Of a DNA stretch of 64,000 nt, positions 21,201-60,870 are shown in pieces. The notes beneath the pieces are model-generated. The model was given only the letters and a program-made list of their open reading frames with translations, was not told the DNA's origin and made no database searches. The stretch is taken from NCBI GenBank assembly GCA_903813345.2, contig CAIIXF020000007.1, positions 26,835,564 to 26,899,563 of the forward strand, in the 5' to 3' direction. Numbering within the stretch: position 1 is the stretch's first letter; each line of letters starts with the position of its first letter. The DNA is from Owenia fusiformis (Eukaryota; Annelida; Polychaeta; Sabellida; Oweniidae). The translations under genes were made by a program, and so were the position numbers.

Positions 21201-24200
21201 CCCATAGAGCCCATGTTACAAAATCACAAAAAGTGAAATATCTTATCTTGTTTTAGGCAGATAATAATTTCTTTCTCTTGACAGCATATTTTCATTTATC
21301 TGAAATCCAATTGTAGCAGTCCCAAGTATTGTTTTCATATTTTTAAAAGATGTCAGTCCAAAAAACCAATTGAATGCTACATGTATATGAGGTGAGACCA
21401 GGTATGAATTAATCTCATGCTCATGTATAGAGGGTGCATTAAAGTTACAATTTAATTTTGTTTTATTTTTGCACTATTATTTCTTTTCATCAACTTCATA
21501 ACTTTTTCAAATGAGATATTACTGTGTGTAGAAATGAAACCAATCATTTATCCAGTGGTAACAAAACTCATATCAAAGAATATAAAACAGTAATTTAAAA
21601 TTGTGTAATAAAACAAAATGAGTTTAATATGTTCTTGATATGATATTATAATCATTGAAGTGATAAATTATGAAATGAAGAGAATAGTATAAAACGTGAT
21701 GTATCAATTTAATGTATCAATTATAAATTAATATGGAATCAATAAAGTTCCTGCATATTATTCACAACTACTAGGTATAAACATAGAATTGCGTTGTCAA
21801 GATCTGGGAGCATGAGACATGATCAAGATGCCTTCATATATCGATCAATTTGTTCAATATTTTTGAGGTATTTTTGGGATATGTGACTTTTCTGGCTCAT
21901 TATTATTCAGGTTTCATTCAGTATTAAACCTAATATCTCCCAGCCATGTTTAGCGCAGGTATAGTAATCAGAGGTTAGCTTGACATTCAATAAATAGAAC
22001 ACGGGGATAATTACATAAGCATACTGACTCAATTTTTATCGCACCGTTTATCGCAAACCGTTTGAGGGATTCATTTGAAATTCTCAGGGATGTTTCTACC
22101 TATGAAAGGTTAGAACTGATTAGTTTTTCGGCATTCTGGGTAAATGTTAAGGCGGCCATTTGGGATTTTCCATCCTAAAATCTGGTCTGTCAAGGCTTGT
22201 CTACAGGTTTCCAGCCAAACTGTTTGAGGGATTCATTTGAAATACTCAGGGATGTTTCTACCTATGAAAGTTTAGAACTGATTAGTTTTTCGGCATTCTG
22301 GGTAAATGTTAAGGCGGCCATTTTGGATTTTCCGTCCTAAAATCTTGTCTTTCAAGGCTTGTCTACAGGTTTCCAGCCAAATCGTTTGAGGGATTCATTT
22401 GAAATTCTCAGAGATGTTTCTACCTATGAAAGTTTAGAACTGATTAGTTTTTCGGCATTCTGAGTAAATGTTAAGGTGGCCATTTTGGATTTTCCGTCCT
22501 AAAATCTTGTCTGCTTGTCCAGCTTGTCTACAGGTTTCCAGCCAAACCGTTCGAGGGATTCATTTGAAATTCTCAGGGATGTTTCTACCTTTGAAAGTTT
22601 AGAACCGATTAGTTTTTAGGCATTCTGGGTAAATGTTCCTAAAATCTTGTCTGTCAAGGCTTGTCTACAGGTTTCCAGCCAAACTGTTTGAGGGATTCAT
22701 TTGAAATTCTCAGGGATGTTTCTACCTATGAAAGTTAAGAACTGATTAGTTTTTCGGCATTCTGGGTAAATGTTAAGGCGTCCATTTTGGATTTTCCGTC
22801 CTAAAATCTTGTCTGTCAAGGCTTGTCTACAGGTTTCCAGCCAATCCATTTGAGGGATTCATTTGAAATTCTCACGGATGTTTCTACCTGTAAAAGTTTT
22901 AGAAAACTGATTAGTTTTTCGGCATTCTTGGTAAATGTTAAGGCAGCTCAGGGATGTTTCTACCTATGAAAGTTTAGAACTTATTAGTTTTTCAATATTC
23001 TGGATAAATGTTAAGACTTTTTCCGTCCTAAAATCTTGTCTGTCAAGGCTTGTCTTCAGGTTTCCAGCCAAACCGTTTGAGGGATTCATTTGAAATTCTC
23101 AGGGATGTTTCTACCTGTAAAAGTTTTAGAAAACTGATTAGCTTTTCGGCATTCTTGGTAAATGTTAAGGCAGCCATTTTGGATTTTTCGTCCTAAAATC
23201 GTGTCTGTGGAGGCTTATTGTTTTAAAAAATAAAAAAGAATTTCCCATTGAGAGCAATGTTAAATTAAAACATTTTTTTAGAAATAACTAAACGGTCAAT
23301 CTTTCCAATTTTCACATATTTTTAATACATCAGTATATCTTTTACCAGGATTTTTTTCGGGAAAATCTGAATTGTAGAAAAAAAAGCTGAAACACTGTGA
23401 AGTAATACCTTAAAACGTGTATTTTGAGGGTTGTTTACAGGTTTCATGGATTCATCCTAAAATTTTAGAGATGTTTCTATGGAAAGTTTAGAACTGATTA
23501 GTTTTTAGGCAGTCTGGGTAAATGTTAAGGTGGCCATTTTGAAATTTCCATCCCGAAAAGTGTATTCTGTTCAAAGGTGCGGTTCTGTTCACCCTGTGGC
23601 TTGTTGGGAGTTTCATTCAGTATTAAACCTAATATCTCCCAGCCATGTTTAGCGTAGGTATAGTAATCAGAGCTGTTAGCTTGACATTCAATAAATAGAA
23701 CATGGGGATAATTACATATGCATACAATTTTTGATATTTAGTTCACACCCATGGTATATGGAGCTTGTGATTATGGACTGGTGTGGTGCAAAGAGCTTGA
23801 CTGCCAGTCTTCTCTAGGAGACGATCAAACTTTACGATACAAGTGAATTTTTTAAACTAAACAAGTAATAATTATAGGATGAAAATGAATTTCTTCCTTG
23901 AAACTGGACATAATACTCCTGCATTCTTTCAAGTTTACATCTTGACCATACCAGTCATATATCACAAGCTCTGTATAGCAAGTGTGGGAAATGTCACTGA
24001 GTACTTATTGATAAATTTGATACTATTCCTGTTTGTAATTCAAAGTGCCAATATATCATCCCCGAGCATATGTTTAGCTCTCTATGTCAAGCCGACTAAA
24101 ATCATTGATGTATTTATTGATTTCATATTAGGTGCTCATCGTCTGCCAGGTACATTTTCAGAAAAATATTATTACTATGGTTACTTGTATTTTTTCTAAA

Positions 24201-25950
24201 AGATGAGGTAGCACCTTAGTTCTGCACGTGCAATCATGCTTTTTCTTCTGATAAATAGAAATACGTATATATATTTTTTGCCAAACGTCCATATTTGGGA
24301 ATATGTTATGTAGTTGCATTTTGTTCAGACTGTTATATGTAATCACATTCTGTTGATAAAAGTACATGTAGTAGGTATCTATATTGATGAAATTGATATC
24401 TACTCACGTATATGGAGATCATCCTATATGAGGTTCAGGATATTGGGATTATCCTATGGCCATTGATTGGGTACACCCCAGTTGTCCGAAACCCAGTTCT
24501 CCGAAACCCAGTTCTCCGAAATCCAGTTGTCCTAAACCCATTACTCCGAAAAATATAGTCATAATTTACCAGAGAAAGGGGGGACGTACTTAGGCTTAGG
24601 CCAGTTCCATGCCATGTATTTGACCAAATTAATGGCATGGACGCATTCTGATGTTCATAGATCTCACACTTTGAATTGCATCCATTGTATGGCGTTACCA
24701 GAATGGCAGGAACGGTGGATTTATTTTACATCGAGATTCTAAAAAGGTTATCAAAACACAATATATATTACGGAACAGTTCATCTATCTTCTTCAATCTC
24801 TTTTGTATAGGCAAAATAAAATGAAACATTTTGAAACAGATAAAATAAGTTAAAGCATAGAACTTTAAGAATAAAACAGCATACATTTTCGTATCAAAAT
24901 GGATATTCTCCCATTCGCAAGAAGTTTCATTTTTGGCATGTACTCACTTCATCCTTTTGAATTTAATCTCTATTTCTCGAATAGAGTACGTAAGTTTCAA
25001 AAGATGTACATGTCAACTTTACTAAATAAATGCCCACTGGCTTGGGAAAGCTATTTTCCCTTTTATGAACGCCCATCAACCATTGGAAAAAATGTTGTTC
25101 CTTCTCAAAAAAGGCCCATGGCCATAAAGGAAATTGGTGTAAAAATTGTAAACCCCTATGTATGTTATGTAAACGCCAATTTGCAATGGGAATAACATAA
25201 TTTAACTTTGTTTGGACATCGATATCGATATATGCCCTTGTACTTTCATCTTTTGACAGTTTTTATTAAATACCAGCCCATAAAGGAATCGTTCAGTTGA
25301 TGAAATTTACTCTCAAATACACCCTTTACCAATGAAAAAGTGTTGTTCATAAAGCTGTAAGCTGTAATTTTCGGAGAACTGGGTTTCGGACAACTTTCTC
25401 GAGTACTATTCGTAGACTTGACTTTATATTGTATCATGCAACCAACTTTAATTGCAATATGTCTATGTATTTTCAGGTAGGCTATTCTGGGGGTTATACC
25501 CCCAACCCTACATATGAAGAAGTTTGTGGTGGAAAAACTGGCCATACAGAGATTGTACGTGTTGTATATGATCCCGAAAACCTTCAGTACGGAACTCTTT
25601 TAAAATTATTTTGGGAGAGCCATGACCCTACCCAAGGTATGCGACAAGGTAACGATATGGGGTCTCAGTACCGATCAGCAGCCTACTGGTACACCGAAGA
25701 CCAGAAAGCAGAACTTCTGGAATCTAGAGACAATTTCCAAAAGGAATTGAATAAACTAGGATATGGAGAGATAACTACGGAAATTAGAAAAGCCCCAGAA
25801 TTTTATTATGCAGAGGACTATCACCAGCAATATCTGCAAAAAGTACCCAATGGTTACTGTGGTTTATCTGGAACTGGTGCCTCATGCCCCATAGGGATTA
25901 AAAAATCAAGTCCCGCAAATGGTTATAAGCCAGATAATAGTGAATTATAA
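18240..25950 (+). CDS. MSRA: Peptide methionine (S)-S-oxide reductase MsrA
   Basis: Reduces the S epimer of methionine sulfoxide, free or in proteins, using thioredoxin. Exons 18240-18358, 18760-18855, 20979-21043 and 25477-25950 join in frame. From the ATG at 18,304 they encode 229 residues starting [19 protein letters not shown], like the cytosolic form of animal MSRA. The catalytic motif [13 protein letters not shown] has the nucleophilic Cys at about residue 54. [33 protein letters not shown] and [12 protein letters not shown] follow. [13 protein letters not shown] supplies the two recycling cysteines (about 200 and 209). Upstream of the ATG the frame stays open to the acceptor at 18,240 and reads [19 protein letters not shown], basic and hydrophobic like a mitochondrial presequence. 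An upstream exon could therefore supply a second start. The gene is intact and convergent with E75. Confidence 0.95.
18899..18976. repeat. Small foldback in MSRA intron 2
   Basis: AAGGCCCCATGTAAAGTT and AACTTTATATGGGGCCTT form an inverted pair about 40 bases apart. It is a short hairpin-forming insertion starting about 45 bases after the splice donor. Confidence 0.6.
19141..19995. mobile_element. ~850-bp near-perfect foldback element in MSRA intron 2
   Basis: Left arm about 19,141-19,555 and right arm about 19,570-19,995 are reverse complements with only scattered differences. Termini are ACCCTATGCAGACAGAGCCT and its mirror, with the symmetry centre near 19,560. Nothing coding is present. 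A diverged single arm recurs at 37,412-37,615, so this is a dispersed family and not a one-off inversion. Confidence 0.85.
20200..20310 (-). repeat. Partial copy of the element inserted in the reverse transcriptase
   Basis: Read on the minus strand, it contains ATTGACTTTGTTTACAGTTT and TACAGTCATGTTCGAAT, matching 11,220-11,300. It is a fragment only, in MSRA intron 2. Confidence 0.6.
20689..20817. mobile_element. Foldback copy of the same short element
   Basis: Nearly perfect palindrome of about 125 bp. ATATAGACCTCAGAGCAGGG is mirrored by CCCTGCTCTTCGGTCTATAT, with GTCTAGGCACAAAAGC paired to its own inverse in the centre. It sits about 160 bases before MSRA exon 3. The outer arm matches the start of the insertion at 11,100. 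Confidence 0.75.
21060..21900. other. First part of MSRA intron 3, no gene
   Basis: It begins with a G-run repeat fragment (CATAGCCAGGATTTGCC near 21,075) of a type often seen as transposon debris in marine invertebrates. AT-rich sequence with no coding signal follows. Confidence 0.5.
21905..23730. repeat. ~160-bp satellite array flanked by ~110-bp direct repeats
   Basis: From about 22,060 to 23,220 there are seven to eight imperfect units of roughly 140-166 bp. Each contains TTTGAGGGATTCATTTGAAA, AGGGATGTTTCTACC, ATTAGTTTTTCGGCATTCTG and CCTAAAATCTTGTCTG. A degenerate extra unit lies at 23,440-23,560. The block is bracketed by two nearly identical direct repeats, 21,905-22,012 and 23,609-23,722 (GTTTCATTCAGTATTAAACC through GGGGATAATTACATA). 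No coding potential. All of it is inside MSRA intron 3. Confidence 0.85.
24470..25400. mobile_element. Element with inverted 15-bp tandem-repeat ends, copy 1
   Basis: The left end (24,478-24,552) is about five units of AGTTGTCCGAAACCC (one variant AGTTCTCCGAAACCC). The right end (25,370-25,395) has one to two units in inverse orientation (GAACTGGGTTTCGGACAACT). The interior matches copy 2 over at least 24,553-24,790 (for example ATTGCATCCATTGTATGGCG) and again at 24,895-25,040 (CGCAAGAAGTTTCATTTTTG). No transposase. It ends about 80 bases before MSRA exon 4. Confidence 0.75.
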
Positions 25951-25994
25951 CAGCTGTGATATATAAGGGTTATGTACTGGGAGGTTTTGGATAT

Positions 25995-26085
25995 GGGGTT
26001 TATCCAGAGGGAGATATGCATATCTACCTGAGGGACCGTAGGGAACGAAGGTAGATGTGCATATCTCACGAGGGATGAACCCAAA
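25995..26085. repeat. Inverted repeat in the MSRA 3' region
   Basis: GAGATATGCATATCTACCTG is mirrored by AGGTAGATGTGCATATCTC, with flanking GGGTTTATCC/GGATGAACCC. Related GATATGCACCGAAGCGGGA words repeat at 26,245-26,290. It would fall in the 3' UTR if MSRA transcripts extend to the AATAAA at 26,180-26,185. Confidence 0.5.
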
Positions 26086-26389
26086 TATCCAAACCGGTAG
26101 CTCCAAACCGACCGTACATAACTGCTTTATCCTATACCAAGTAGAGTTTTCAGGGACATATGGCCATTTCAATAGTAAAAATAAACAAATCATTCATGTG
26201 CAAAGTCATTGTATTGTATTTCCACTACTTACCGGAAGCAGGAAGATATGCACCGAAGCGGGAGGATATGCACCGAAGCGGGAGATATGGAGGTTCTGGA
26301 TATGGAAACCTCAAAATCAGGATACGGGATATATCTTACCAATTTATCTCCCTAAAATTCTACTTGGCATAGGATAAGATCCTTTATGT

Positions 26390-28160
26390 TTGTGTCTGAC
26401 TCTTGTAATTGCAATCGTATCAGGTTATTAAATGGAATACTGTATTTAGAGTGTCTTCATAAAAGTCATTTTGCAAGGTTTTTCAAACCCAGGAATGCCT
26501 GGATTTTGAGAGAGTAAATGGCGACAGGGAAATGTCAAGGTTTTATGCACAAGACCCTAAAAAGTTGGTAAAAATTGGTAGATATAATCATAGAAGCCTG
26601 TTCATAAAGTCAATGATAAGATACAGAGAGACATTATAAAGAGGAAAACCTGAAAATTGCTTGCCTTGATCCATTGTTAAAATGTTATAGGAGAACTGAT
26701 ATATGTGAGATGCACACCAATGATTTTGTTTTGAATTTGTACAAATTAATCGTCATTGTTTATACTTAATGAGATTAATCATCATTATTTATACATAATG
26801 AGTATATACTGTATGGACCATGATACTCAGGTTTATAACAATCCACAGTTACCTCAAAATATTTTTGATTCATTATGTTTTGCTGATGCACATTCAACAG
26901 ACATTTATATAAAACATCTTTTCTGAATAAGTAAAGGACCCACGGTCCTGTGCTCACACAGTGTTTTGTGCAGCCAATGATGATTGACTTTATACATGAG
27001 AATGTTCCCTGAAAATGACAAAGTCTTTCTTTTTGTCAAATTCTATAGAGTAAACACCAAAAACTGTAATTTCAAGAGCTTTGAAATCTTCAGAGAACAT
27101 AAGTTGTATATACAGCAACTACTACAAGTTATTTGAAAGTTCTACTTGTACTTCAACAAAGTATCTAGTATTTACAGAAAATTTGACTTTTTGACGTCAA
27201 AATCAGCAATTTCTCGGAAACTGGGCGAACTTGGGAAATGGCGATGATAGGTCAAATAGGCATTATGGATATGCATAAAATGAATGCGGATATGACTCAA
27301 TCGGAATAGCAGTTTTAATTTGTGCGGCCAATGTTTACGGTTGGATCAACGGACGGATCAACGGACAGACAGATGCCTGGTCGATCCCATAGGCTCACTG
27401 TGTGAGCCAAAAAGCATTTGCATTTTAAAACTTTAGAGTCCTAAAATTCAAATTGGAGCAATTTTCCAAGCTTAACATTTTCAGAAAATAAGCTATGGAC
27501 CAGAATCTATTGATATTGCAAGTTTACGGATCAACAGGATTACTATTTTTGGGCTATTTAGGATCAGGATGACAAACATTGCCATTTTAGGTATAGTCAT
27601 TTCAAAACATGTATTATTTTGGCTCGAGTAGTTTGGTATACCACAGACTTGAAGAAATGAAATCTGTGGGTATAATTGATGAAATTTTTTTACAAATGAT
27701 TTTATCATAATGGTTACATCATTTACATGTGATCAGCCCTGGGATGGTTATATATTGACCCATTCTTTTTAGAATTTACATGGCTTCAAATTTGTATACA
27801 ATCTATGTTTATAAATGACGTTTACACCCTCTCCAAATATATAGAAAGGCTGTATTTTCATTAGATATCATGTTAAATGTTCCAGCCTGCTTATGGTTTG
27901 ATTAATAAAAATTGGTTCAAAAAATGACAAAGATGAATTATATCAAATCACCAAATGCACATAAAAAAGTAAATGGATATAATCTTTAACATATGGTTCA
28001 TTTTGGGAAATAATGTTGCCAATCTTTTGGAGGGGAGTGTATATTAAACATATGTAAATAGAGGTTTAAACATACATCATTGAAAAGTTCAGGGAGTAAT
28101 TATTTTTGCAGAGATATCACAATATACTGTAAGTACATGTACAATGATGTCAGGTTTATA
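26390..28160. other. Intergenic spacer, no gene recognised
   Basis: AT-rich spacer between the MSRA and E75 3' ends. About 27,230-27,420 carries a repeat tail with GGATCAACGGACGGATCAAC and CATAGGCTCACTGTGTGAGC, and related tails occur near 13,140 and 35,640. No conserved reading frame. Confidence 0.5.
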
Positions 28161-28164
28161 GGAC

Positions 28165-28455
28165 ATAAAATATAGATTATTTATAAAAACAAAAGCAAGC
28201 ACTGTCTTTGTAATATTCTCCTTTAGGATATTTATTTTCCAAGAAATATCAAGTGCAACAATGGAAGAAGGTCTAATGAATGGAATAAATTTTTCCCCAA
28301 ATTACACCACACTAAAATATTGGTATTTTCTTCCAAACATTCAAGAGCTTAAATATAGATTATTTATAATAAAAACAAAAGCAAATACTGTCTTTGTAAT
28401 ATTCTCCTTTAGGATAGTTATATTCCAAGAAATAATTATGAAGTGCAACAATGGA
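28165..28455. repeat. Local ~95-bp direct duplication
   Basis: The sequence at about 28,170-28,265 (ATATAGATTATTTATAAAAA through AGTGCAACAATGGAA) recurs at about 28,353-28,455 with few changes. The duplication helps keep a 161-codon frame open (28,261-28,746). That frame is low-complexity, unlike any family I know, and probably not a gene. Confidence 0.65.
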
Positions 28456-29875
28456 ACAACTTTGGCCCAAGGAATGAAATATGCTTTTTCGAAGGACATC
28501 ACACTTAAATACCAGAATACTGAAGGTCTTCTCTTTCAAACCTTTGAATTGCATGTAGCAAAGAGTACTCATTACAAATGCACAAATTCTCATATTAGAG
28601 CATTTTCAATACCTGAGGAGGTAACTTTAAGGATGGGTAAAGGTGTGCGCATGTGGAGTAAAACCTGCATTAGTGGGAGTGCTTGGTACCTCGAAAAGGG
28701 TTCCAACTGGGAAGTGTTCAACTTACAGAAGTTTAATTTTACATGAAGTTAATGAGGTGAGGTGTTCTACTCTACATATGTTACTGTAATCAAATGGAGC
28801 ACAAATCTCTCATTCGGGCCATGAATTAGTAGGATCCAGAATCCAATCCGGATAAATTTTGTCATGGTAATTATGCATTGTGAGATTGATCCTAGAATTA
28901 ATCCTAAAATCGGTGAATTTGTACATTCCTGCTTGGGATTAATCTCAGATAAATTTTATAATTAAATTGGATAAATCTTGAGGATTCCCCCTTATTGTCC
29001 TCAGATAGTACCAATTCACTTAATATTTTTCGGATAAGTAATCCAAGATTTTTCCCATAAGATAAAATACATCCGGATCGGATTGCTGATGGTACCAATT
29101 CCCGGCCCCTGAAAATAGTTCTGTTGCCAGGGTAACAAAGAAAACGGACATAATTTCCATAGTTACATAATGTGCAATTGTGTTACAATAAATCTCATAA
29201 AAACCTGACTAAAGCTTGTGTGCAAACACAAATAAAAATGTCCATGATTAAACTTGAAAATATATTTGTCCTAGTTGCAAACAATGAAAAAACACGACAC
29301 ATACAGGGATAAAAACGCACTTACTATTGAAAATTCAAAATGGCCCATTAGCACAATAGAATGACAATAGAGCACTAAAAATTTGTAATATTAATCATCA
29401 TTAACAAAACACTTATTTAAAACAAGCCCCAGTTGACCTTTATGCTTAAAACATACCTGTAATAATTTAGGAAAATATTTTTTATCAACTTTCAAATGAG
29501 ATTATTTTCTAAGATGACCGGAGAAAAATTGTCATGTCACGACTCACTACCACAAGTGGTAAAAAAATCTTGTATTGTTGGTAATTGAGATTACATCCAA
29601 AAATTTTCTTGCACGCCGGTGACTAGTTTTTGGAACCATAAGTCATTGATATGAATCTCATCCATTTCTTATCTCTAATGTGGCGCTTGAAAATAATAAA
29701 TAATAGGCCTATATTTCTTGAATGAAAAAACATCAAACATACTTTCAAAAGAGTGTTGAATTGAAAGCCATGGAGTAAATCTGAGTCAAAATGATAATGA
29801 AATGATCCAGAAGAAACTAAACAAACATGATTGTTTGATTTTATAGAAAGATGAAAAAATGTCTGAAATCACTAA

Positions 29876-30050
29876 AGCCTCAGTCACATTTGCTCTATGG
29901 CACGCAAAATGGTAGTCGTAGCTTAACAAAATCACTATAGAAAATCTATGTTGTACTATTTATCCCTATATTTTATGCTGTATATTTATCTCGATTTTTT
30001 GGAAGCTGCGGTTAATGTATTGTTGCCGTAGATCAAATGTGACTAAGGCA
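29876..30050. mobile_element. MITE with GCCTCAGTCACATTTG ends
   Basis: A ~175-bp element with AGCCTCAGTCACATTTGC at the left and the mirrored ATCAAATGTGACTAAGGC at the right. Related ends occur at 63,435-63,660 (GCAAATGTGACCTAAGC) and 63,735. Confidence 0.6.
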
Positions 30051-30180
30051 TTACTTACAAAACAATTTACTGAAGCTTGAGTATACATCCAAATATAAAT
30101 ATCTATATTACATTGTTAAAAACATGTTCAATAATAAAACATGTGTAACCAAAATAGATACGAGGCATTAACATGCAAAA

Positions 30181-30282
30181 TATCACCACCTGCCATTTGT
30201 TACAGCTGCTGACTGCCAAATACCATCCACAAAAAGTTGGAGACCGTAACAATATGTCACCACTTGTGGTGGTGACATAAAA
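30181..30282 (+). mobile_element. TGTCACCACC-family MITE, intact copy
   Basis: It runs from ATATCACCACCTGCCATTTG to CTTGTGGTGGTGACATA, with AAAAAGTTGGAGACCGTAAC inside. The inverted ends are GTCACCACC/GGTGGTGAC. This is one of the least degraded members of a family with at least nine copies in the window. Confidence 0.75.
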
Positions 30283-31509
30283 ACAAGCAACTACAATACA
30301 AATAACAATAACAATTCAAATAATTTTAATATATACAGATTCATTATTTTATACATAATTTAGCAAAACGACATCAATATTTTAATAAATGACATTTTTA
30401 CATACATTTTGTATGTCCACTATACATGTACATTTATTTCCCCCAAAATACACCAGAGATCAATGAAGAATTACAATATGGTTAAACCATGTAAAAATAT
30501 ATTAGTTTTTATAACATTTTATAATATATGGCTTTTAGTCATTTAAAGACTCGGGGCTCTTTCAAAGAGGGGTTCCTCGGTCTGCCTTCCAAGATTACAG
30601 ATGTTAACAACGACTGTATAAAAACATGATATATCCAAGAGATATTACTCATCTTCATTGGTGGTGAACAAAAATAAATAAAATACTGTCCTAGGATCAA
30701 GAATTTGAACAAACCAATACTTGCCTAAGTCTGTATTTTTAAAATGTCAATTTAAAGATGTATTCCAGGGAACCTTTATTAGTCTGAAGAATAAACTCTT
30801 TAACCTTAATAGTTTTCAAATATTTCTGAAATGTGTTTTATTTCTTTTGTTCGACTGGTCTATGAAAAAAATATTTGTAAAATCCCAGGCCCCATACATT
30901 TAAATTTTAGAGGAGATTGAAAATGAGAAAATATTCCATATTTATGAACACCAGTGTATCACATGTGGGAGTAAGGTGACTAAATGGTGACTATGCTCAT
31001 CTTCGCATGCTCGGTCTTCACTGCGTTCATTTGACCGACAGGAGCTGAGTTAATGAAGATGCTGCACATGGCTGGTGAAAATGGCCTAATCTTTACAGTC
31101 ATGTGACTTAATTTTAACTGTGGGTTTTCTCTTGACTTTGACCAATCATATAATAACAATCTTGACAGTGATCTCATCAAATGACTAGTTCTGTATAATG
31201 GAATGGGTGTACCAGCCTAATTTTATTCAATTTAGAAGCTACAATGATTGATGTCAAAAGTAACACATACAGTAATCATCACAAATAATCAAACTACTCA
31301 AACTGTAATACTGTAATCAAACAATGGCAAGCTTATTTATTGACTTGTGTATTGCAGAGTTTAAAATTTGAAAAGCCAACTTGTCCCTTTTTTAACAAAA
31401 TAAAATTTGGACCTAATTCGACAACTGGTATTTGAGTTATTTGAGAAATTATATTCATCCTAAAAAAGACAGCCATTAATAATTTAGCAGGCATTAAAAA
31501 AATTACTTC

Positions 31510-31809
31510 TTAACCTCTTGAATACCCAGAGTGACGGATATATCCGTCACAAATGAAATAAGACTGGTGCCCAGAGGGACGAGAAAATCCGTCACAAAAT
31601 TTTTCACAAAAATTGCTCTCATTTGAACAATTTTCATCCAATTTACACAAAAATTGTTTTAAAACGTGTAGAAATGATCTCTGCCGTCCAATTTTACTAA
31701 GCTGAGCATCTAAAGTTGTATAGGTATGTAATAAAATGTCAAAAGGTGGCAAAAATGAAAAATTATTTGGTTTCATGCCAATTTTAGAGCCTGGGATTCA
31801 AGAGGTTAA
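31510..31809. mobile_element. 300-bp MITE with TTAA target sites (piggyBac-like)
   Basis: The ends are TTAACCTCTTGAATACCCAG and its mirror CTGGGATTCAAGAGGTTAA, with TTAA at both edges as piggyBac-superfamily elements leave. An internal palindrome reads TGACGGATATATCCGTCA. A shorter relative in the opposite orientation lies at 56,126-56,315. No transposase. Confidence 0.7.
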
Positions 31810-32567
31810 AACAGTCCAGGCATCTGCACATAATAGCTGAATCAAATCTAACAACAGGTATCCCAGTTTTCAAAGGTAATATTTTTACAAAAAATGCTGG
31901 CCATTTTGAAATAAGCACTCATACTTGAAATTCCTTCATTTGGCGGAATGCAATACTATACTGAAGTATATCATTCCAGATGCCACACAAATAAAGCTAA
32001 AAGCAAAATATTATTCTTATGTTTTGTGCATTTGATGCATTCACGATTTATCACATACTCTTACGACACTTAATGATATGTACATGTAGTGAAATAAATA
32101 ATTGATGAATACATGTATAACGAATAACTCTAATGGTCAGTGGCATAATCTGTAAAATTGTTCTAGAAATGCAGTACTTCAATCTTAGCTATCTGTCCTA
32201 AAAGACACACCTTTCTAACCATTCTGAATAATGTATATTCAATATCATTATCATTTATATTCAACATTTTGAGATTATCACCAGACATATCATGCCCATG
32301 GACATATCTATGATCAAATTGGCAATTATCATATTACCAAAACCTAAATGATTTCAGAAAAATGAAAGCCTTTATTGTGCAAGCCATTGCCAATAACCTT
32401 AGTCCAAACTTGTACAAATATGTACTTGAGCAAGCCTATAATTATTTCAGTTTATAGCAGATATTTAACTTTTAGGGTGGAGAGGAAGTCAAGTCCATCT
32501 TGCTAGTGCAATCCAATTTCTCCTTTCTAGTTCAAGCCAATTTCACAATTTCCTCAGTAAGTTCATA
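31810..32567. other. E75 3' flank and probable 3' UTR
   Basis: AT-rich, no gene. On the minus strand a canonical AATAAA (plus-strand TTTATT at 32,371-32,376) lies about 195 bases past the E75 stop and is a candidate polyadenylation signal. Confidence 0.35.
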
Positions 32568-35500
32568 CTAGGTAACAGTAACTGGTTCAATTTTGATATA
32601 AACAGGTGACCGAGGATCGTCAGATTTTTGAGCTCCAACCGTTAGATTTAGAGGCTGGTTATGCGGATTGTGGGTGGGTGTTACACTTGTCATTCTGTGG
32701 TTAACGTCTCTTTGAGCACCCATATCCTTATATGGCGCCAACGTCTCAGTTTGTTTCTGCCTGGAAATATCATTTTTAAACATTAATTTTTATAGATTAT
32801 TTTATATTTTCAGTAGTACAGGGTGATTCATAAGTAAAGTCAAAGATGTTGCCATTTCAATTGGTCTGAAAAGCAGGAAGTCTGGGTTCAGGCTGAAAAG
32901 TAGAGGTCTTGGGTTCAAACCCAGGTCACAGCACTTCTTGTGATTTGTCTTTGACCTATGACTGCTGACCTATACCGGCGAATACTAGAGTGCTGCTTAC
33001 TCGATAAAAGGCTGGCGCTGGCTAGAATTGTCTATGGTTCTAGCCAGGATAAAGATACCAGTTCTTCAACTCGACAATGGGAAGAACTGCTCTACCTTAG
33101 TGACTAATATGTCATGATATGACATCTAAAGAGTCAATAAAAGATATATATAAAAGATATATATAATACTACTGGATCAATCTTCTTGAACCTTGGAACA
33201 GATATTATCAGTATTTGATTCATTATTTGAGTATATTTATTTTGTTGAGTCAAGCTTCAACTATTTCACTGGTCGGTTTTATGGTTACTATGGAAACCCA
33301 ATGTGACATATGTGACAATGCAGCTTGTGTTATGTGTTCATGGATTCTTATTTGCATGTAATGGAAAGGTAGAGCTTAGATCATCAGTGCATTCATTTAG
33401 ACAGTACATGTATTAGACACAGTCTAACCCAAGCCCTATAAACCATGACAATGCATGACTTTTAATTAACCAACCAAAAAGAAAAATTGAAACAATTTAA
33501 TTATTCCCATGATGATTAATGCATGATGACAAAATATATGCTTGTTTCACTTCATTTCTATCAAATTCCTTTTTTTATTTATTTATTTCTTATTTCCTTC
33601 ATATAACAATAAATCAAAATACAAATTATTTACAGTGGACACCTAATATAGATGTATATATGGCTTGATTAGACATGGATTGAATATAATAATAGCATAA
33701 AAAAATAAAAGTATAAATAAGAACACATTAATAGTTGTTGGGGAGGAGCAGGAGGGGTGACAGTAAAATGAAGTAAACTTTCACTTGTACTCACTTTCCA
33801 GTTTTATATGATACCGGATTTTCTCGCATATAAGCCCTGGGCGTATAACTGAACTGTACTACTTTCGATTTTTGGCCCAGTGGGCGTAAAGGTGAGAAAA
33901 ACAAAGTAACAACAGAACGATCCACCACTGCCACTTACGGCACAGCGTTGAAGTTAATGTTGAAACAAAGTAACAACAGAACGATCTGCCAGTGACAAAA
34001 TACTCTTGAATTTATTGAAAAGACCAATAAATAGTCATTTTTATAGGCCCATGGGCGTATAAGCGTACTACATTCAATTTTTGGCCCATGGGCCTAAATT
34101 TAGGGGGGCTTATATGCGAGAAAATCCGGTAACCTGTGAAGAAAATTTCAGTCCTTACCATTCGATATGTTGTCTGTGTCTGTTGAGCTGTTGATTCATA
34201 TAAGGGGCATTTTGCCTGTTACTGGACAAGGAATGTGCCATCTGATAACCAGCAAAGCTGCTGCCCATCATCTGCTGCGATTGGTGGATACTGCCTTTGT
34301 TATAAACCATCATGCGGTTATACTGCATGTTAATGAGATCCGGTAAGCCGTGTAAGCCCTTTGCGGGAGAAGTTGGGTATAACATTCCCGGTGGGAAATG
34401 TTGAGACATTTGTACACCTCTTGGTGATAAATTACACGCCACCTGTGAGTTATACTGAGTCCCCGATGCAAGCCATGGCCTTTGATCTTGAGGAAACGCA
34501 GAATTGGAACTGTGGCTGTCCGTGTACTGCTGCATTTTATTTTGCACTGACATGTCCATAGAATTTGGTACAATTGGAGATTCATGCATTTTATTAGTTG
34601 GTGATCCTGATTGTGATAATTTCGCAAAATGTTTTCTCATTTCGTCAGAACGGGTTCCTGTAATATATTGCCAGGCATTGCCATTGATATGTTTCAATCT
34701 TTCTCCCAGCATACTATTACATTGATAATTCTGGCGTATCACTTCCTGTTCAGATTTGTTTCCCGTTTCAATCTGTTTAAAATTCTGCTCTGAATTTTGA
34801 GAATTTAATGGATACTCACGAGGTATCGCGAGTATTTCCAACATAGAATCGTCTGGACTATTTTCTCTTGGACTATTTTCTCTTGAGTTTAAATATGAAT
34901 CAAGTTGTGAGTTGTTACTAGACATTGATGAACTTGAGCGTTTACAAACGTCAAACTTCTTATGTGGTTTATATGAGCAACTTGCAGAACTTTCACTGGG
35001 ACTTGTCCGAGACAACCCTAAACCTGCGCCATCTGTGTCCAAAAATGGATATAAAGGGTTATGGAATATGGGGCTACCATCATCTCCTCTCATTGCCTAA
35101 AACCAGAGGAAAGAACAATCTAAGAATTAAAAGTGCTAGAAATCACCCTACTCACAAATGCCTCTTAGTCAAATTCCATTTTGAATTTTAAATATATCAA
35201 TTGGTCAATGTTGAATCCTACATTTAACTTTTTGGGTTTGTGAAATATCAATATAAGAGCTAAAAATACAGTCATTAGAAATGGTGACATTGGAAAATTT
35301 TCATATTTCAGATTCAAAATAAGAGAACATAATTAATGCCATCTCTGCATTTATGGGAATGTTATGGGTGAGTAGGTGGGTTAATTGTGTTATGGGACAT
35401 TTACTTCTATGCATCACTACACAAAGTGGTTGTTATTGGTTTCATGTGCTAAAAATACTTTAAGTTAATGTCTAATATATCATAACTAATTGACCCGAAA

Positions 35501-38464
35501 AAGCTGAAGAATCATAAGATTATACTAATAAAAAATAACTTTTTGAAGCCTATAAAATGGATAAGCCCACAAAATGGATATCAGCATAATTATTCAGACA
35601 ATGCTCAGTAAACAAAATAATACTCTCTTTTGTCTGAGAATTGTTGACAGATGGAGGGATAAACTGACGAACGGATGTAGGTATGAATGGATAAGTGACA
35701 CATAGACAGTGATCTCTCCAGCATTAAAGCAAGTGGGCGCAGCACCCACCTGAGATTTTTAAAACAGGCTTGCACCCACCTGAGAATCCATTTGCACCCA
35801 CTTGAAAATGAGAAAAATCATGAAAATTTGGCATATTTTGGCCAATTATGGTCTGAACTGTGAAAATGAGAATTTTGCACCGACTTGAGAAAGATTATTC
35901 TGTGGAGAACACTGCATAGAATTGGTATAAACATGTGAAAATATATTACCTTACTACTAATGATGTTTGGTTCAGGATGTGGTCGTTTACGAGTATTGTT
36001 GTCACCAGATTGTGTCATCTTGATTAAGGACTCCAGCGGAATAGGACCCTCATCTAATTGTGAGGTACATGTAATTGAGCTATTCACTCCTGGACTGGTA
36101 TTCACTCCGAGACTGGAACTGGATATGTTTGAATTTTCAGATATCGTCTGATGATTCTTTGGTGAAGAAGAAGATGAGCTGGTGCTATTTACAACATTAG
36201 AGCCATTAATACTGAAAAAGAAAATATCAATGATTTCATACAGTGTATATACGCTTCCTAGTCAACTCGTACCCAAGACAACTCGTACCCAAGACAACTC
36301 GTACCCAAGACAACTCGTACCCAAGACAACTCGTACCCAAGACAACTTGTACCCAAGACAACTCATACCCAAGACAACTCGTACCCAAGACAACTCGTAC
36401 CCAAGTTTATTTTCAGTATTATGGGTGCATATTAGGAAAACAAATTGAGTCTGTATAATAATGTTTTATTGTTATTATGTGAATCAATATTTTTTCTGAA
36501 TTTAGAAGACATTTTTTCTCAATGGATTAAGCAAAGCATTTTGTTTTAACTTGGATCACCTTTTTTAAATAAAAGAAGTGCTTTGAAGGGCTTGTTCTCG
36601 ACTTTTTTGTCATACGTATATATAAATGAATTTAATTACAACAGTAACTTTTCTACAAATGAATCAAACAATTAATTTAGCTAAGTGCAATTAGATAAAG
36701 TTGTAAGGGAAGTTTAATCTGTTAATTTCTTTTCCATTTTGAACTTAATTGGATTATATTTGAGCACATGCATACAAAGTGTATTATATCATGTACTGTA
36801 TGAATAATATAATATCATTTAGAATATTTTATTGCTAAATTTTATGAATGTGACTTCTTAAAATTAACATTCTTCAATCTGATAATATGAAATCCTAAAT
36901 AGATTATCTGTTAAATGAGAAATTAGGCCCAAGTTTTGATAAATATTAATATTTTTAATAATACCATCTTGAAGATCTGACACTTGTTCCAAACATTCAT
37001 AAACATACAAAAATACCTCAAATATTTTGAACAATGATTATGAATATGTGGAAAAAGCATAGGTCTCTTCCCTCAAACATTCTGAATCTGTGACCAATAT
37101 AAAATAATAGTCAAAATAGATTGACACTTAATTTTTCAAAGCTCAAAATGTCACAAAATTAAATAGATTTCTTCCAAAAACTCTTCTACACACTTCAAAC
37201 TAATCTGAACTGTATGTAACAATTATAATATGTATATCTATACCCATTCCATTCCAACACTTGATTGAAAACAAAACATAAACTTGGGTACGAGTTGTCT
37301 TTGGTACGAGTTGTCTTGGGTACGAGTTGTCTTGGGGACGACTTGACTTGGGTACGACTTGACTTGGGTACGAGTTGTCTTGGGTACGACTTGACCAGTT
37401 ACCGTATATACACCCTATGCAGACAGTGCTTGTAGAAAACTCTTGGTTGGGATATGCATACGCACAGTGCGGAACCAACGGTCATTTTTTAATTTGATTT
37501 TGTGATATTTTTTAAACTAAGTCATGTTTGCTTTTCAAATATATCCATATATGTGAAGAAGGTACCTAATAAAAAGGAAATTGTGTAAATAGTTGTTAAC
37601 TTCATTCCATATACAGTATATTAATATAATAATATATTTTGCATAAAAAAATAAATAAATAAAAATACCTTGATGAGCTTGGGCACTCTTTGATCCTATG
37701 CGGAGTATGGAGTATGATACGCTCATTGTCTGATGATGGGCCTCCTTTATGACCAGTAGCAGACGGGTATTCAGGGTACAGGGGTAAGTCCAGATACAAT
37801 GGATCTAGATCACTACTGCCCGCCTTCATAGGGCCATTACACACAGTCATATTTGGCAAAGGACTAAAAATCAGAAAAAATGAATCGATTAGTAGTCTAT
37901 AGCTGAAGAACTTGATGTAACTCTGGAATTTCATACTTGTATATAAACCTTGTGTAACCCCCCTTCCTCCAACAAACACACTAACAAGGCATTAATATGC
38001 AAAATGTCACCACCGACCACCAAATGCCAACTGTCAAACACAAACTGCCGAACAGTGTTAAAAAAAGTTGGAGACTATAACGATATGTTACCACTTCAGG
38101 GGATATGAAAATGATAATATCCAATAATTCTATTGTTTCAATTTATTTATTTTGCCTATTGACAGGTTATAATAAAATCTTAACTCAAACATCTACAGTA
38201 GAGAATTATAACTTTAATAAAAAGAGCCAAAACAATGGCTGTGATAAAGGCATTGGAATTATATCACACTTGTCCATTTAAAGTACATAATTATAGTCTA
38301 TTCATTTTCTGGTACTGATTTGACCATTTGTTAACTTTTAATATTTTATGACAAATGTAATATATTGTATATTCCATTTTAGTAAAAATAATCTTACTTC
38401 GAAGGTGCTGCTGCCTTTGTCTTCCGCTGTGCTGTTGTTTGTGACTTTGAATGGCTGGCCATCC
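32568..38464 (-). CDS. E75: E75 F-region exons with repression and SUMO-like motifs
   Basis: Exons 38398-38464, 37669-37863, 35950-36211, 34159-35096 and 32568-32760 encode a long, probably disordered C-terminal region. Visible features are a basic patch ([13 protein letters not shown]), an acidic-aromatic stretch ([17 protein letters not shown]), a possible nuclear-localisation patch RKRPHPEP, and serine runs. Near the end, NQPLNLTVG resembles the CtBP-binding PxDLS/PLNLS motif. The last exon ends [11 protein letters not shown], whose IKIE fits the SUMO consensus (hydrophobic-K-x-E). These motif roles are inferred, while the frame and splice sites are well supported. Confidence 0.88.
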
Positions 38465-41400
38465 CTACAGAGACAACAGATTCACATTTACCTGACTTCT
38501 CAAACATAATCTTTAATTTCATAGTTGGTTATTTTTCCGAGTACACTTGGGTTAACTTAATTTGACATAATTTCCTACAATGTTATTGCAATTGGTTTGA
38601 TTTGGATATATGATGCAAAAAGCTCCACTCCTTAGGTGTCTACCTGGGAATTTTGGTTAAATTATTCCTGAGACTGTTATTAATATGGGACATAATAATA
38701 CCACACCTGTGATCATTTTACATTAATTTATCATTATGTAATATCAATGCTGATTCAGGCTACCTATATTCCAAATGTCAGACATATTGTCAGACATATA
38801 TTTTATTTGAAATAAGTGGAAGGAGAGTTTGACATTTGAAATATCTTTTAATGATGTGTTTCATGTACAGTCGCCTATATCATTATCACAAATATCAAAT
38901 TCCTCATTTCAATGTTGTAGCTAACATCTGATATAGCATTTTGCTAATAGGTCTTTCAATTTTGTTTTCTAATATGTTATAGCCTACAGCATAATAATTA
39001 CTTTTGCCAGTTACGAGTTAACGATAGGATGCACTGAGTTTTCTGTCTCAGTCTTATTCTAGTTTTTACCCATACCATCTTAGACCCCTGAAGTCTAAAA
39101 TTAGCGTTTTACTAAATCTCCTCTGAAGGTTTCAAATTCTATCTCTTTATCATAATCGTTTACTTTTAAGTTACAAGAAGTCTATCTCAGGTTTGACCTC
39201 AAATGACCTCTTAAATTGACATCATCAAAATTAGCCCTATCTAATTTTAAATGTCGAGTTATATTCTTAAACATTCTCAATCTAACGGCAAATAGTGCTC
39301 AAATCATGCAATGTCAAAAAACAGTGCGACTCCAAGTCATGCGTCATATAACACTCTCCAAAATGAATTCTTGTAATTCTTGTTTTCTGAGATCTCATCA
39401 TATCTGCTTTAATGGGCACATTAACCTTTTGTAGATTACTGACATGGACATCAGCCTCAAATCAAATAAATATACGCTTATAGGCACACCAAAAACTTTT
39501 TCAAAATCACAACTCCCAGACCTTTTTGGAATACTGAAATTCCCTGAGATTTTTAGCCATTTGTAAGGAAATTCTGACCTTGAAATATCTGGTCAATTCA
39601 GGTTGGTTTTGCCACCCTGAAGATGGCAACAAGGCAACAATGGGGTGCCAATAGTGTCACACAGGGGTGCACCCCAGTTGTCCGAAACCCAGTTGTCCGA
39701 AACCCAGTTGTCCGAAACCCAGTTGTCCGAAACCCAGTTCTCCGAAACCCAGTTGTCCGAAAAATTTAGTCATACTTTACCAGATAAAGGGGGACGCACC
39801 TCAAGCCAGTTTCATGTCATGTATTTGGCAAAATTAATGGCATGGATGCATTCTGATGTATAGATCTCTCTCTCACTTTGAATTGCATCCATTACACGGC
39901 GTTACCAGAATGACAGGAACGGGGGATTTATTTTACATTGTGATTCTAAAAAAGGTCATCAAAACACAATATATATTACGGAACAGTTGATCTTATCTTA
40001 TTCAATATATTTTATATAGGCAAAATAAAATGAAACATTTTGAAACCGATAAAATAAGTTAACGCATAAAACTTTAAGAATAAACAGTAGATCTACACAT
40101 ATTACGTTGTCAAAATGTTTCGTCGCATTTAATTTCTTGGTCTCTGTCTCTTATCAAATCGTAAAATGAACAAAACATTCTAAACGTAATCACTTGGGAT
40201 TAACTGGAAACGAAGACAGGCTGTCCTCATATCAAATTGGATGTTCTCCAATTCGCAAGAAGTTTTTTGAATTTAATCTCTATTTCTCGAACAGAGTACC
40301 TAAATGAAGAATAATTTTTGGTTTCAAAAGATGTACACGACGTCAACTTTACTAAATAAACGCCCAGTAGGCTCATTTGCGTGAAAAGCCGGTAGTTGTA
40401 TTTATACACTCCCCTCCATAAGTTTGGCAACCTTAGCTCCCCCATTGAACTACGTGTTAAAGCCTCTTTACGTTTGAATTTTTATTTACGATGAAATAGC
40501 GTATAATATTGATGGAAACGTAACTTTACTTTATTTCCAATACCTCCTAATTTTCTAGATTTTTTTCCTCCATAACAAGAGATCGAAAATTGAGGATAAA
40601 TTTGATGAATTTTTTAAAATCGTCATTCCCGTATAATCCAAGGGGAAATAGAGAGTTCGGGGCAAATCAGAATCTTTTCAGTAAAAGATTCAGCAAAATT
40701 TTTTTGGTATAAAAATTTGAATTGTCTGACTTTTTTGTTCACTAAGTTTTAATTTATTTGATGAATACTAAATTTATACAGCTTCAAAGTCATTTTTGAA
40801 AATAATTTTTCGACTCCTGTGTTATTTCAATGGGAGAGTTTTCTTGAAAACCAATTTTGACTTTAAAGCCCTGTAACTTTGTTGAACCTGAAGAAACATA
40901 TCAATTCTTTGTTAAATAAAGTTAGCAAATTCAATTGCCTGCCTTACTCATATTTTGCAAGGACTTGAATGGATGAATATTCTGTCATATGACGTGCGGT
41001 AAATCTACCATTTCCCATTGGATGACATGGGAATGACGATTTTCAAAAAGTCATCAAATTTATCATCAATTTTCGACCTATTGTAATTTAGGAAAAAAAT
41101 TGATAAAATTTGAAGGTATTGGAAATAAAGTCAAGTTACGTTTCCATCAATATTATAAGTTATTTCATCGCCGGTTAAGTAAATAAAAATTCAACTTATG
41201 GAGGTGAGTGTATCTTCCATTGACGGAGGATAATGTTTAAAGGGGCTGTGCGTAGGAAAACTACGCTTGCCTTGGGGACTCCGTACGGCGTATCCAGTTT
41301 TTCACACGCCGCAGGGTCACCGTATAGAAATTATAACTCGGAGTTATAATATTTGTTCATTTCTGAGGTCCCGTAGAAATCAACTGGCTCAACAAGATTG

Positions 41401-44400
41401 AATCATTATTTGTCAATGTTTCACGATCACTTTTCATTTGATATTACATCCTAGCACTATGAATAACATTTATAGATTGCCCTGATGTAAATAAACTGAA
41501 AAAAGTATTATTTATCAACAGAAATTTAAAATTCACCGTGCGGCTGCCGTGGGAAGTCCTATTGATCCTCATAAATTATCCCCTACTCATACTAAGTTAA
41601 AATGTGCCCATCGTGCGCCTAATGCTAATGGCGCTGTCACACTGGTCGTGTCCCGTCTCTCAACGTACAAAGCATTCAGGCCAAAATTTAAGGAATAAGC
41701 TATAGTGAGCTGTTTCAGAACGCCGTCTGAAACGCCTTCTGATTCTGAACCCACTGTATTCATTGGACGGTGGGAGGTCGTCCATGCTTACACTTTCAGT
41801 ATCTGACACTATTATCACACCAAACTAGTTCTCACTACGCTCTCGAGAACGGGCTTAAACTGTGTGGACGGATTGGAAGTACTTAGAACCGTCTGGGGTG
41901 TACTTGCCTACTCGAAAGGGTAGTTCCAAAATTTCCACGTGGTCATCACTTTCTGCAATCACGCGGTCTTCGACCGTTAATTGGAATTTTTGACCTACCA
42001 GATGCTTGAAAATCAAGGATTGCGAGTCTGATACTGCACCGTTTTTCTTCCATTATACCATTAAAAGCAAAACAAAATTGCACTTCTGTCAGTGCATTAC
42101 TTTATTGTAAAGAGTCTCTCGTTCTAGCAGCATTTTGGTCCCCACTCCCCAGCTGTTAGAAGGCCTTCTTACAGCTGGGGACCAAAATTACGCTGGAAGT
42201 AGGAACTCTGTTTAAGATAATAACGTACCATCAGAAAGAGATTTTTGTCATGCTTTGAATGGAACAAGTTTGAAGAAAAACGGTGCAGTATGAGACTCGT
42301 AATTGATTTTCAAATATCCGGTAGGTCAAAAATTCAAATTAACGGTCGAAGTTAGGACCGCGTGGCGACGTGGGGCAAAGGTTGAACTGTCTCAGAATGT
42401 ATTGGGAACGAGGTAGAAATAAAGAATTCATATGAACGAGTCATGCAAGATACTAAAGAGATACAAATTCATTTTGATACTCAGTTTTTGGGCAATTAAA
42501 ACTCCCTGTCTGCATTGAGTATAATAGTTATTTATTGTCCGGTGTATAATTTTGAAACATTATTCTAATTTTTCACAAAACTTTTTCAATGATTCTGCAA
42601 TAGTTAATGGTTGACATCTATGGCACACTAAAAACGAATTTTTTTATGCAGGATACGTATATGATACAGATCAAATCTTGGCTCTACTACAAACTATTAC
42701 ACACTTACTTCAACAGTTCAATAGACTATATCGCAAAAACACAGTTTTGATTTTGAACAATATCACCAATGGGAGAAATTTTTAAATCTAAATGTTTGGA
42801 AAGGAATACGTTTCTACTAAAACATACAAACCTCTTATATTATGATGAAAAAGGATAGACATCTGATATGTATATATGCCACATATATAAGTTATACGAA
42901 ATGAGCATATTTTATTGATTTATCGAAAATTTGGACGAAATCTTAACAATGGGTGGTACTGAACAACCAAAATCTTCCTTTTAGATATTTTTCAGGGTAG
43001 AAATATTATCAATGGATATTGGAAAACATAATTAACCATATCTTATTGAGAAAAGGGAATGAAAAAATTATCAAATGAATATATATAATTGTCACGGACG
43101 TCCATAACGTTATTCTAATGAGATAGATATTCCTTTCGCCAGAATATTCTCTTCGACTGTGATAATTGTCTAAAATGTTGGCGGCAGTCTTGAATTTTCA
43201 CCAAGAAGGAGTGCGATTCGTGCTGGACAATGCGGTTCAAAATTTGTAGAATGTCCATGGTATATGAGCCGAGAATCTAGTAAGAATATATATATGATCG
43301 TGAACTTTCGGACCGATGTCAACGTGATACCAATGTTATGCTGTCCTGATTTGCGAAGTTGCGACAAGATTCGTTACTATATAAGACATTTAATTTTTTA
43401 ATTTTCGGAGAACTGGGTTTCGGAGAACTGGGTTTCGGACAACTGGGTTTCGGAGAACTGGGTTTCGGACAACTGGGTTTCGGACAACTGGGTTTCGGAC
43501 AACTGGGTTTCGGACAACTGGGTTGACCCCGTCACACAGACACTTTCAAAAGATCAAGAAGAAGACCAGATCACAGTGGCAAGATATGGAATAAAAAATG
43601 TTTACTTACCTAACAATTTTTCTGAGTGAAGAGCATTTAATGTACGGATATCCGGAACTTTCATAAGAAGTTTCGCAAACAACGCTGGAACATAAAACCA
43701 CAAGATCATGTAACAAAAAAGTTACATAACGCGACTAGAAAGGATAGAGATGAGTCGAGACTATGTTTTGAAAAAATTGTCACAATTTTAAAATATTTCT
43801 TGCTCTCTTCATTAGATGTCACTCATATTTCCTAAAAGTCCAAATGTTCTGACTTTATTTCAGTATAATCCTTAAAAATGAGAATAAATGGATGAATTTG
43901 GACATTTCTGTATTTTAAATTTTTAATAAGTTCTATATCTAAGGATTTAGGCCCTGGACTCAGAGCAATGTGGAGTGACCGTTCCTCGAAGGTGTTCCTT
44001 TCCAAAATTTGCATGAGATGTGGAGCATCGAGTGTTAATTCTAGGAAACAATGCCTGAAAGGAATGGTCATTTCACAATGCATTGAGTCTTGGGCTTAAA
44101 TTCTTTTCACACATTGAAAATTTTTTTCTACAATATCATCTAAAAGATAAGAAATCCCTAAAAGAACATATTTGAAATAAATTTTTTTGCAAGGGTAAAG
44201 TTATCAATTTCAATCTGAAGAGTCCAAATATTTTGCTACTATAGTATGAATTAAGAAACAAATCACTTCACTTGATATTCTGCCAATATTAGCCATCACT
44301 CGTTTCACTAAAACTCTCAGTGAAAGGCCACATTTGAGCTCATTAAGACAGTTTAAGAATCAAAATGGTTGAATCATTTGTAGCACTCAGTGGGCAAAGT

Positions 44401-60346: not shown

Positions 60347-60870
60347 CTGAAATCATAGAAATAAGACCTGGAATTATATTATAGAAATAAGACCTAAAAT
60401 CACATTTGAGAAATAAGACCTGGAATTGCATTATAGAAATAAGACATTAGAGAAATAAGACATGAAATTATGTTAGAGAAATAAGACCTGAAATCGCATT
60501 TGAGAAATAAGACCTGGAATTGCATTATAGAAATAAGACCTGAAATTACATTATTGAAATAAGACCTGAAATCGCATTTGAGAAATAAGACCTGAAATCG
60601 CATTTGAGAAATAAGACCTGGAATTGCATTATAGAAATAAGACATTAGAGAAATAAGACATGAAATTATATTAGAGAAATAAGACCTGAAATCGCATTTG
60701 AGAAATAAGACCTGAAATCGCATTTGAGAAATAAGACCTGGAATTGCATTATAGAAATAAGACATTAGAGAAATAAGACATGAAATTATATTAGAGAAAT
60801 AAGACCTGGAATTACATTAGAGAAATAAGACCTGAAATCGCATTTGAGAAATAAGACCTGAAATTACAAT
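60347..60870. repeat. 26-bp tandem array adjoining the E75 zinc-finger exon
   Basis: About twenty units of GAAATAAGACCTGAAATCGCATTTGA type (26 bp, written here as GAAATAAGACCTGAAATC + GCATTTGA) and a ~16-bp short form, GAAATAAGACATTAGA. Higher-order groups recur. The array starts directly at the splice acceptor of exon 60240-60346. On the minus strand every unit repeats the acceptor-like ATTTCAGG. The 121-codon minus frame across it is an artefact. Confidence 0.85.

Follow-up and report, generated by a model that had tools for sequence, protein, structure and literature searches.

A family of foldback transposons with ends of 15-bp tandem units in the annelid Owenia fusiformis, very probably of the Mutator superfamily

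Introduction

Foldback elements whose inverted ends consist of a short motif followed by a row of tandem units are already known, the closest described being Muta1 and Muta5 of Aedes and Tm1 of Meloidogyne. Sea-urchin TU elements also have outer domains of short tandem units, with 8-bp duplications. Here we describe a new family of this design from Owenia fusiformis, built on a 15-bp unit, AGTTGTCCGAAACCC. Two of its copies lie in a stretch of 64,000 nucleotides (the window; GenBank assembly GCA_903813345.2, contig CAIIXF020000007.1, positions 26,835,564 to 26,899,563). We consider it very probable that these are non-autonomous cut-and-paste DNA transposons of the foldback type, belonging to the Mutator (MULE) superfamily. 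A literature search made by words, not by sequence, found no paper describing the unit or the family.

According to the parts of the cited reports used here, 10 of 12 MULE families with long terminal inverted repeats in Aedes aegypti carry subterminal tandem units of 9–15 bp (PMC5225508). Muta1, classed by its authors as a type 2 foldback element, has as its end motif an imperfect palindrome of 10 bp in which bases 5 and 6 do not pair. This is followed by 9 units of 12 bp each; the target-site duplications measure 8 or 9 bp, and there are derivatives with variable unit number. In Muta5 the tandem units, also 9, are of 15 bp (PMC5225508). Both resemble the Owenia family in the order of short motif (8–10 bp, palindromic in Muta1) and tandem units and in their many derivatives, a likeness of description and not of unit or motif sequence, but they encode a transposase (3.2 and 3.5 kb; PMC5225508), which the Owenia copies read here (1.1–11.0 kb) do not. 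Tm1 of root-knot nematodes has two different 7-bp end motifs and units of 13–15 bp, and it shares with the Owenia family the different motifs per end, the variable unit number, the mostly 9-bp target-site duplications and the presence of copies like miniature inverted-repeat transposable elements. Its unit, CGATTCAGTATCCGC, is unlike ours, some of its copies encode a transposase, and the family is judged inactive (PMC3169594), whereas three copies of the Owenia family are 99.9% identical.

Longer units are found in two further systems, again as described in the portions of the reports consulted. Rehavkus elements, treated as an outgroup of or sister to MULEs, combine 9-bp duplications and minisatellite ends with a PHD-finger transposase (PMC6446971). 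Rehavkus-1_TC of Tribolium resembles our family in that its inverted ends hold tandem arrays, in most cases with five and eight monomers, but the monomer measures 164 bp and the element 9.5 kb (PMC10218199). Tetris of Drosophila virilis, assigned to Mutator by its authors, is likewise a non-autonomous foldback element with 8–10-bp duplications and variable numbers of tandem units in its ends; these units, however, are of ~220 bp and are enclosed in a flanking domain that can reach 866 bp (PMC4079207).

Structure of the two copies in the window

The window contains 18 occurrences of the unit AGTTGTCCGAAACCC with at most three mismatches, against 0.82 expected from shuffles. All 18 are confined to two places, copy A (24,469–25,395) and copy B (39,665–43,530), with forward units at the left end of each and inverted units at the right end, which confirms the claim of a preliminary description that the window holds two copies of one family with inverted array ends. 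Throughout the family each end is formed by an 11-bp motif, a perfect or nearly perfect palindrome, and then a row of 15-bp units. The perfect palindrome GGGTGCACCC is the motif at one end of young copies and GGGTACACCC is found in copy A, while GGGTCAACCC, within the right end motif, is a 10-mer that pairs throughout except at bases 5 and 6.

Copy B is a complete transposon. It is flanked on both sides by the exact 9-bp target duplication GTCACACAG (39,656–39,664 and 43,531–43,539) and reads, in order, GTCACACAG, GGGTGCACCCC, five units and a boundary unit, interior, a boundary unit and seven inverted units, GGGTTGACCCC and GTCACACAG, so that its facing arrays count six units on the left and eight on the right. 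The left end motif GGGTGCACCCC (39,665–39,675, forward strand), whose first 10 bp are a perfect palindrome, is followed by the left array (39,676–39,765, forward strand), in which one of the five units is a AGTTCTCC variant and the boundary unit is AGTTGTCCGAAAAAT. The interior (39,766–43,399, forward strand) is without recognisable coding sequence and includes an imperfect palindrome (74%; 41,960–42,364) that is also present in L009–L013. The right array (43,400–43,519) and the right end motif (43,520–43,530), which reads GGGGTCAACCC inward, lie on the reverse strand.

Copy A is an older, shorter and end-truncated relative of copy B. Its left end motif GGGTACACCCC (24,469–24,479) precedes an array of four units and a degenerate inner fifth unit, ATTACTCCGAAAAAT (24,480–24,554), and an interior of a short deletion-derivative class (24,555–25,365), all on the forward strand. 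Of the right array there remain the boundary unit and a single complete inverted unit (25,366–25,395, reverse strand), and on this side the 11-bp end motif and the target duplication are missing. The two copies have 405 bp in common at 88% identity, as well as interior blocks of 39 and 102 bp, so the shared interior blocks reported earlier are real. Over a 430-bp subterminal stretch, copy B differs by 0.7% from the nearest relative examined (L046) and copy A by 5.6% from its own (L016), so that copy B belongs to a younger wave.

Target-site duplications

The target-site duplications anticipated in the preliminary description were found in most copies. We analysed 31 copies (29 from the genome and the two in the window), in 26 of which both ends were recognised, the others being L015, L018, L019, L020 and copy A. 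An exact duplication of 9 bp flanks 20 of the 26 complete copies and one of exactly 8 bp flanks five (L002, L006, L014, L030 and L047); L017 has an 8-bp duplication with one mismatch. The duplicated sequences vary from copy to copy. The flanks of L014 and L017 are closely similar, and these two are probably one insertion that was copied together with its surroundings; the 26 complete copies therefore hold at most 25 independent insertions.

The 6.8-kb copy L026 is inserted in an open reading frame, with the duplication AGGCAACAC (flanks at 1–331 and 7,103–7,401 of the locus). By eye this frame is retroelement-like, with zinc-knuckle-like and protease-like stretches. The sole other match of its left flank, L050, is without ~155 bp around the insertion site and was rejected as a clean empty site, so that the empty site also envisaged in the preliminary description was not obtained.

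Genome-wide distribution and pairing of ends

In the 498-Mb genome the perfect dimer of the unit occurs 391 times in forward and 317 times in reverse orientation, and the dimer pattern read backwards, which served as control, has 0 occurrences. Queries made from the interior and subterminal sequences returned 412, 432 and 534 first-look candidates, and 40 of each were scored and matched. The exact end motif joined to two perfect units was found at 106 right ends and 89 left ends. The pairing analysis, restricted to perfect ends, took all 89 left ends and 100 listed of the 106 right ends, and among these 48 left-right pairs face inward at a distance of at most 20 kb, against a chance expectation of 0.71 left-right pairs, 0.18 of them inward. 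The span of the 48 pairs ranges from 1,139 to 9,396 bp (median 3,373). The copy of 11,009 bp (L012+L013) is absent from them, the second unit of its left end being a variant.

These numbers bear on whether the arrays are unrelated minisatellites that face each other by chance, an explanation to which we give next to no credence. It could draw on the 41 of 89 exact left ends without an inward partner among the listed right ends within 20 kb, and on the other neighbours found within that distance (four left-right otherwise placed, four left-left and five right-right). Partners can be missed, however, because only perfect ends were searched and six of the 106 right ends were not listed. Chance pairing is rejected by the 48 inward pairs against 0.18 expected, and with the exact 8- or 9-bp duplications in 25 of the 26 complete copies this pairing already refutes the minisatellite explanation. 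The interiors common to the copies also stand against it: all 14 copies read on contig C1 (L001–L011, L012+L013, L028 and L029), chosen mostly for facing perfect arrays, have interior sequence in common. The view that this is a dispersed foldback family and not chance satellite is thus well founded.

On contig C5 two right-type ends lie in facing orientation at a distance of 5.1 kb (C5:21,893,597–21,898,703), possibly a recombinant element with two like ends. One Tm1 element with two like ends is mentioned in the part of that report used here (PMC3169594).

Deletion derivatives, recent movement and array turnover

For the most part the copies derive by deletion from a single backbone, and some have additional insertions. 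L010 and L011 (3.4 kb) correspond to the 11-kb copy minus several segments; in L001, L002, L007 and L008 the first ~990 bp (L010-element numbering) are joined to the last 240; L003 and L006 have a common junction, from 858 to 2767; and L004 and L005 are built differently again. Copy B is without the segment equivalent to 742–5675 of the 11-kb copy, and its interior derives by deletion from the longer element that L012+L013 represents. The internal palindrome described above for copy B is part of the backbone. The longest copies (L012+L013, 11.0 kb; L046, 9.4; L047, 7.4; L026, 6.8; L048, 6.3; L027, 5.9 kb) have the same backbone with insertions and deletions.

Three copies, L030 (contig C10), L031 (C9) and L032 (C3), are 99.88–99.97% identical over 3.3 kb (1–4 mismatches in a gapless aligned stretch) and have different flanks and different duplications, of 8, 9 and 9 bp. 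Their left and right arrays count 4 and 7, 5 and 7, and 6 and 8 units, respectively, boundary units included. The right arrays have identical inner variant units, outside which L032 carries one extra perfect unit, and the left array of L030 has a variant third unit that is absent from L031 and L032. Since such near-identical copies sit on different contigs and differ in unit number, the family has moved recently and its arrays change fast, and the variation in unit number noted earlier between ends and between copies is borne out. Assembly error in short arrays may be a source of some unit-number differences.

In a count over 27 copies, a perfect unit stands outermost at 25 of 27 left ends and at 25 of 26 right ends. 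One place further in, the unit is perfect in 42 of 52 cases, against 22 of 52 for the second unit from the inside (Fisher p = 1e-4, a value that takes no account of the kinship of the copies or of short arrays, in which a single unit enters both counts). This pattern fits either a renewal of the tips or a selection for good units near the cut, and does not separate the two. That the arrays are renewed from their outer tips, new perfect units arising at the end motif or beside it in the course of transposition or repair, seems to us rather unlikely; older units would in that case move inward and decay.

Relationship to MULE transposases

The MULE domain PF10551 has eight matches in the genome, and protein searches with L024, L021 and L038 gave 43, 14 and 19 matches, many of them at the same loci. 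We read the neighbourhoods of 17 MULE loci (L021–L025, L033–L040 and L042–L045), a part of all MULE matches. Nine of them (L021, L022, L024, L025, L034–L037 and L040) have inverted arrays of 15–16-bp units on both sides. The unit is GACAACTCGGACCCAA in L022 and L036, of the CTAGTCAACTCGGACC type in L024 and L025, of the GACAACTCATCCCCT type in L034 and L035, CTTCCCATTTCGCCC in L021, GGGTCGAGTTGACTAA in L037, where the left side is a 36-bp piece only, and CAACTCGTACCCAAGA in L040, where the right array has about two units. A direct repeat of 8–10 bp lies outside the arrays in six of the nine (L022, L024, L025, L034, L036 and L037); L035 and L021 showed no such repeat, and the L040 locus begins 15 bp from the array. 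In the 16-bp families of L022 (C12:4,478,200–4,486,200), L024 (C80:8,700–16,700) and L025 (C12:5,756,400–5,764,400), members with the same ends encode a MULE transposase according to domain matches, with uninterrupted open frames of 599, 617 and 617 codons that match MULE and FLYWCH domains. L024 and L025 are 97% identical over 3.2 kb. The genome carries several MULE lineages with ends of 15–16-bp arrays.

One such lineage is represented in the window by a third foldback element (36,253–37,403, forward strand), with the 16-bp unit CAACTCGTACCCAAGA, arrays at 36,263–36,405 and 37,283–37,393 and the 8-bp duplication GTATATAC at 36,245–36,252 and 37,404–37,411. Its ends are those of the MULE-coding locus L040, with which it has blocks in common that run from the arrays into the interior at 86% and 81% identity. 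Given these arrays, the 8-bp duplication and the blocks, it is most simply a derivative of an L040-family MULE, and because it has both the arrays and the subterminal sequence of L040, it ties array-ended foldback elements to MULEs in this genome.

We assign the 15-bp family to the MULE superfamily because ends of this design, with other units, are present at nine of the 17 MULE loci read and the third window element derives from one of them; because the 8–9-bp duplications of 25 of the 26 complete copies and the 48 inward pairs, against 0.18 expected, identify it as a transposon; and because its end motif, unit size and duplications match the descriptions of Muta1, Muta5 and Tm1. Composite inverted ends (a short motif and then tandem units in variable number) and deletion derivatives with common ends are observed in the family, as in foldback-type MULEs. 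The preliminary description drew a parallel with Drosophila and sea-urchin elements; duplication length, end motif and unit size make Muta1, Muta5 and Tm1, and not Galileo, the nearest relatives.

Several results weigh against the MULE assignment, the first being the transposase itself. Longer copies exist, up to 11.0 kb, as the preliminary description had supposed, but its expectation of a transposase among them was not borne out: of the long copies searched, none flanked on either side by the 15-bp unit carries a recognisable transposase. A Pfam read-through of the 11.0-kb copy (two pieces, six frames) and of copy B (two forward frames) gave matches only at the arrays. These matches, to pentapeptide, extensin, lamprin, PMG and keratin head entries, were rejected as spurious because the 15-bp unit translates as 5-residue repeats. 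With five MULE queries, tblastn reached best E values of 0.45 and 1.9 in the 13 long copies to which it was applied, out of 15; L031 and L032 were omitted as near-identical to L030. Paired short-unit arrays are also missing at eight of the 17 MULE loci (L023, which is partly N, L033, L038, L039 and L042–L045). Finally, the ends of L022 resemble those of the 15-bp family no better than shuffles do (819–1506 of 2000), and those of L024, a locus with an 8-bp duplication, do so weakly (59–352 of 2000).

The degraded MULE locus L038 has a single 15-bp array, with an end GGGGGATAACCCC...ACCGAAAA that resembles the ends of the 15-bp family. Of 2000 letter shuffles, 2 and 1 scored as well, values uncorrected for ten comparisons and obtained for a locus that had drawn attention before the test. 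In the 15-bp family the degenerate unit (C)ATTACTCCGAAAAA on the inner side agrees with the L038 units at 11 and 10 of 15 positions (0.6% and 1.4% of shuffles). On the opposite side, the main 15-bp unit shows no significant likeness to the L038 units (7% and 38% of shuffles), the second end of this degraded locus was not found, and its relatives L042–L045 have no paired arrays. The link of the 15-bp family to MULEs is one of design and not one made through a coding copy.

A Rehavkus-type origin, which we regard as unlikely, would account for the 9-bp duplications and for the tandem arrays in the inverted ends, and the transposases of L024 and L025 show a weak match to PHD at their start (E 0.0012, below the PHD cut-off). 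The same PHD-like proteins, however, also have FLYWCH and PF10551 MULE domains, and the long copies searched yielded no transposase with the ends of the 15-bp family. The unit given for Rehavkus in the part of the report used, 164 bp (PMC10218199), also stands far from 15 bp.

Still less likely, in our judgement, is that the ends are moved by another superfamily with 8–9-bp duplications, such as Merlin, hAT or P/Galileo, in a genome where array ends stand at nine of the 17 MULE loci read. Duplication length by itself is compatible with Merlin or hAT, and for Merlin the DDE_Tnp_IS1595 domain (PF12762) gives four weak genome matches (E 4.8e-6 to 9.8e-4). Galileo, a member of the P superfamily, has a THAP transposase and 7-bp duplications, and not the 8–9 bp of the 15-bp family. 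The end motif, the unit size and the mixture of 9- and 8-bp duplications match Muta1, Muta5 and Tm1 instead, as far as the consulted parts of their descriptions go (PMC5225508, PMC3169594).

If the family is a MULE family, a transposase encoded elsewhere in the genome would bind the end motif and the repeated units, the arrays serving as multiple binding sites. It would cut both ends and insert the element by a staggered cut of 9, sometimes 8, bp, and slippage, unequal exchange or gap repair close to the outer tip might add or remove units.

Other repeats in the window

Three further tandem repeats were observed. An array of ~162-bp units at 22,054–23,015 resembles by eye the arrays near the MULE loci L021 (2,884–3,327) and L039 (5,369–5,654), and is for this reason probably a widespread satellite. 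A large tandem-repeat complex on GGTGCAA-type motifs, including a 282-bp unit repeated four times at 99%, occupies 46,965–49,511, and a 26-bp tandem array, CATTAGAGAAATAAGACCTGAAATTG, with higher-order periods lies at 60,355–60,868.

Significance

Recognising this family matters for annotation, in which elements of this kind might otherwise be masked as minisatellites with no relation to one another. With near-identical copies that have different array lengths, the growth of foldback ends and the effect of unit number on the rate of transposition could be measured. Should the renewal of arrays from their tips prove true, the ends would be binding platforms that renew themselves, and their length would be a record of the recent history of transposition.

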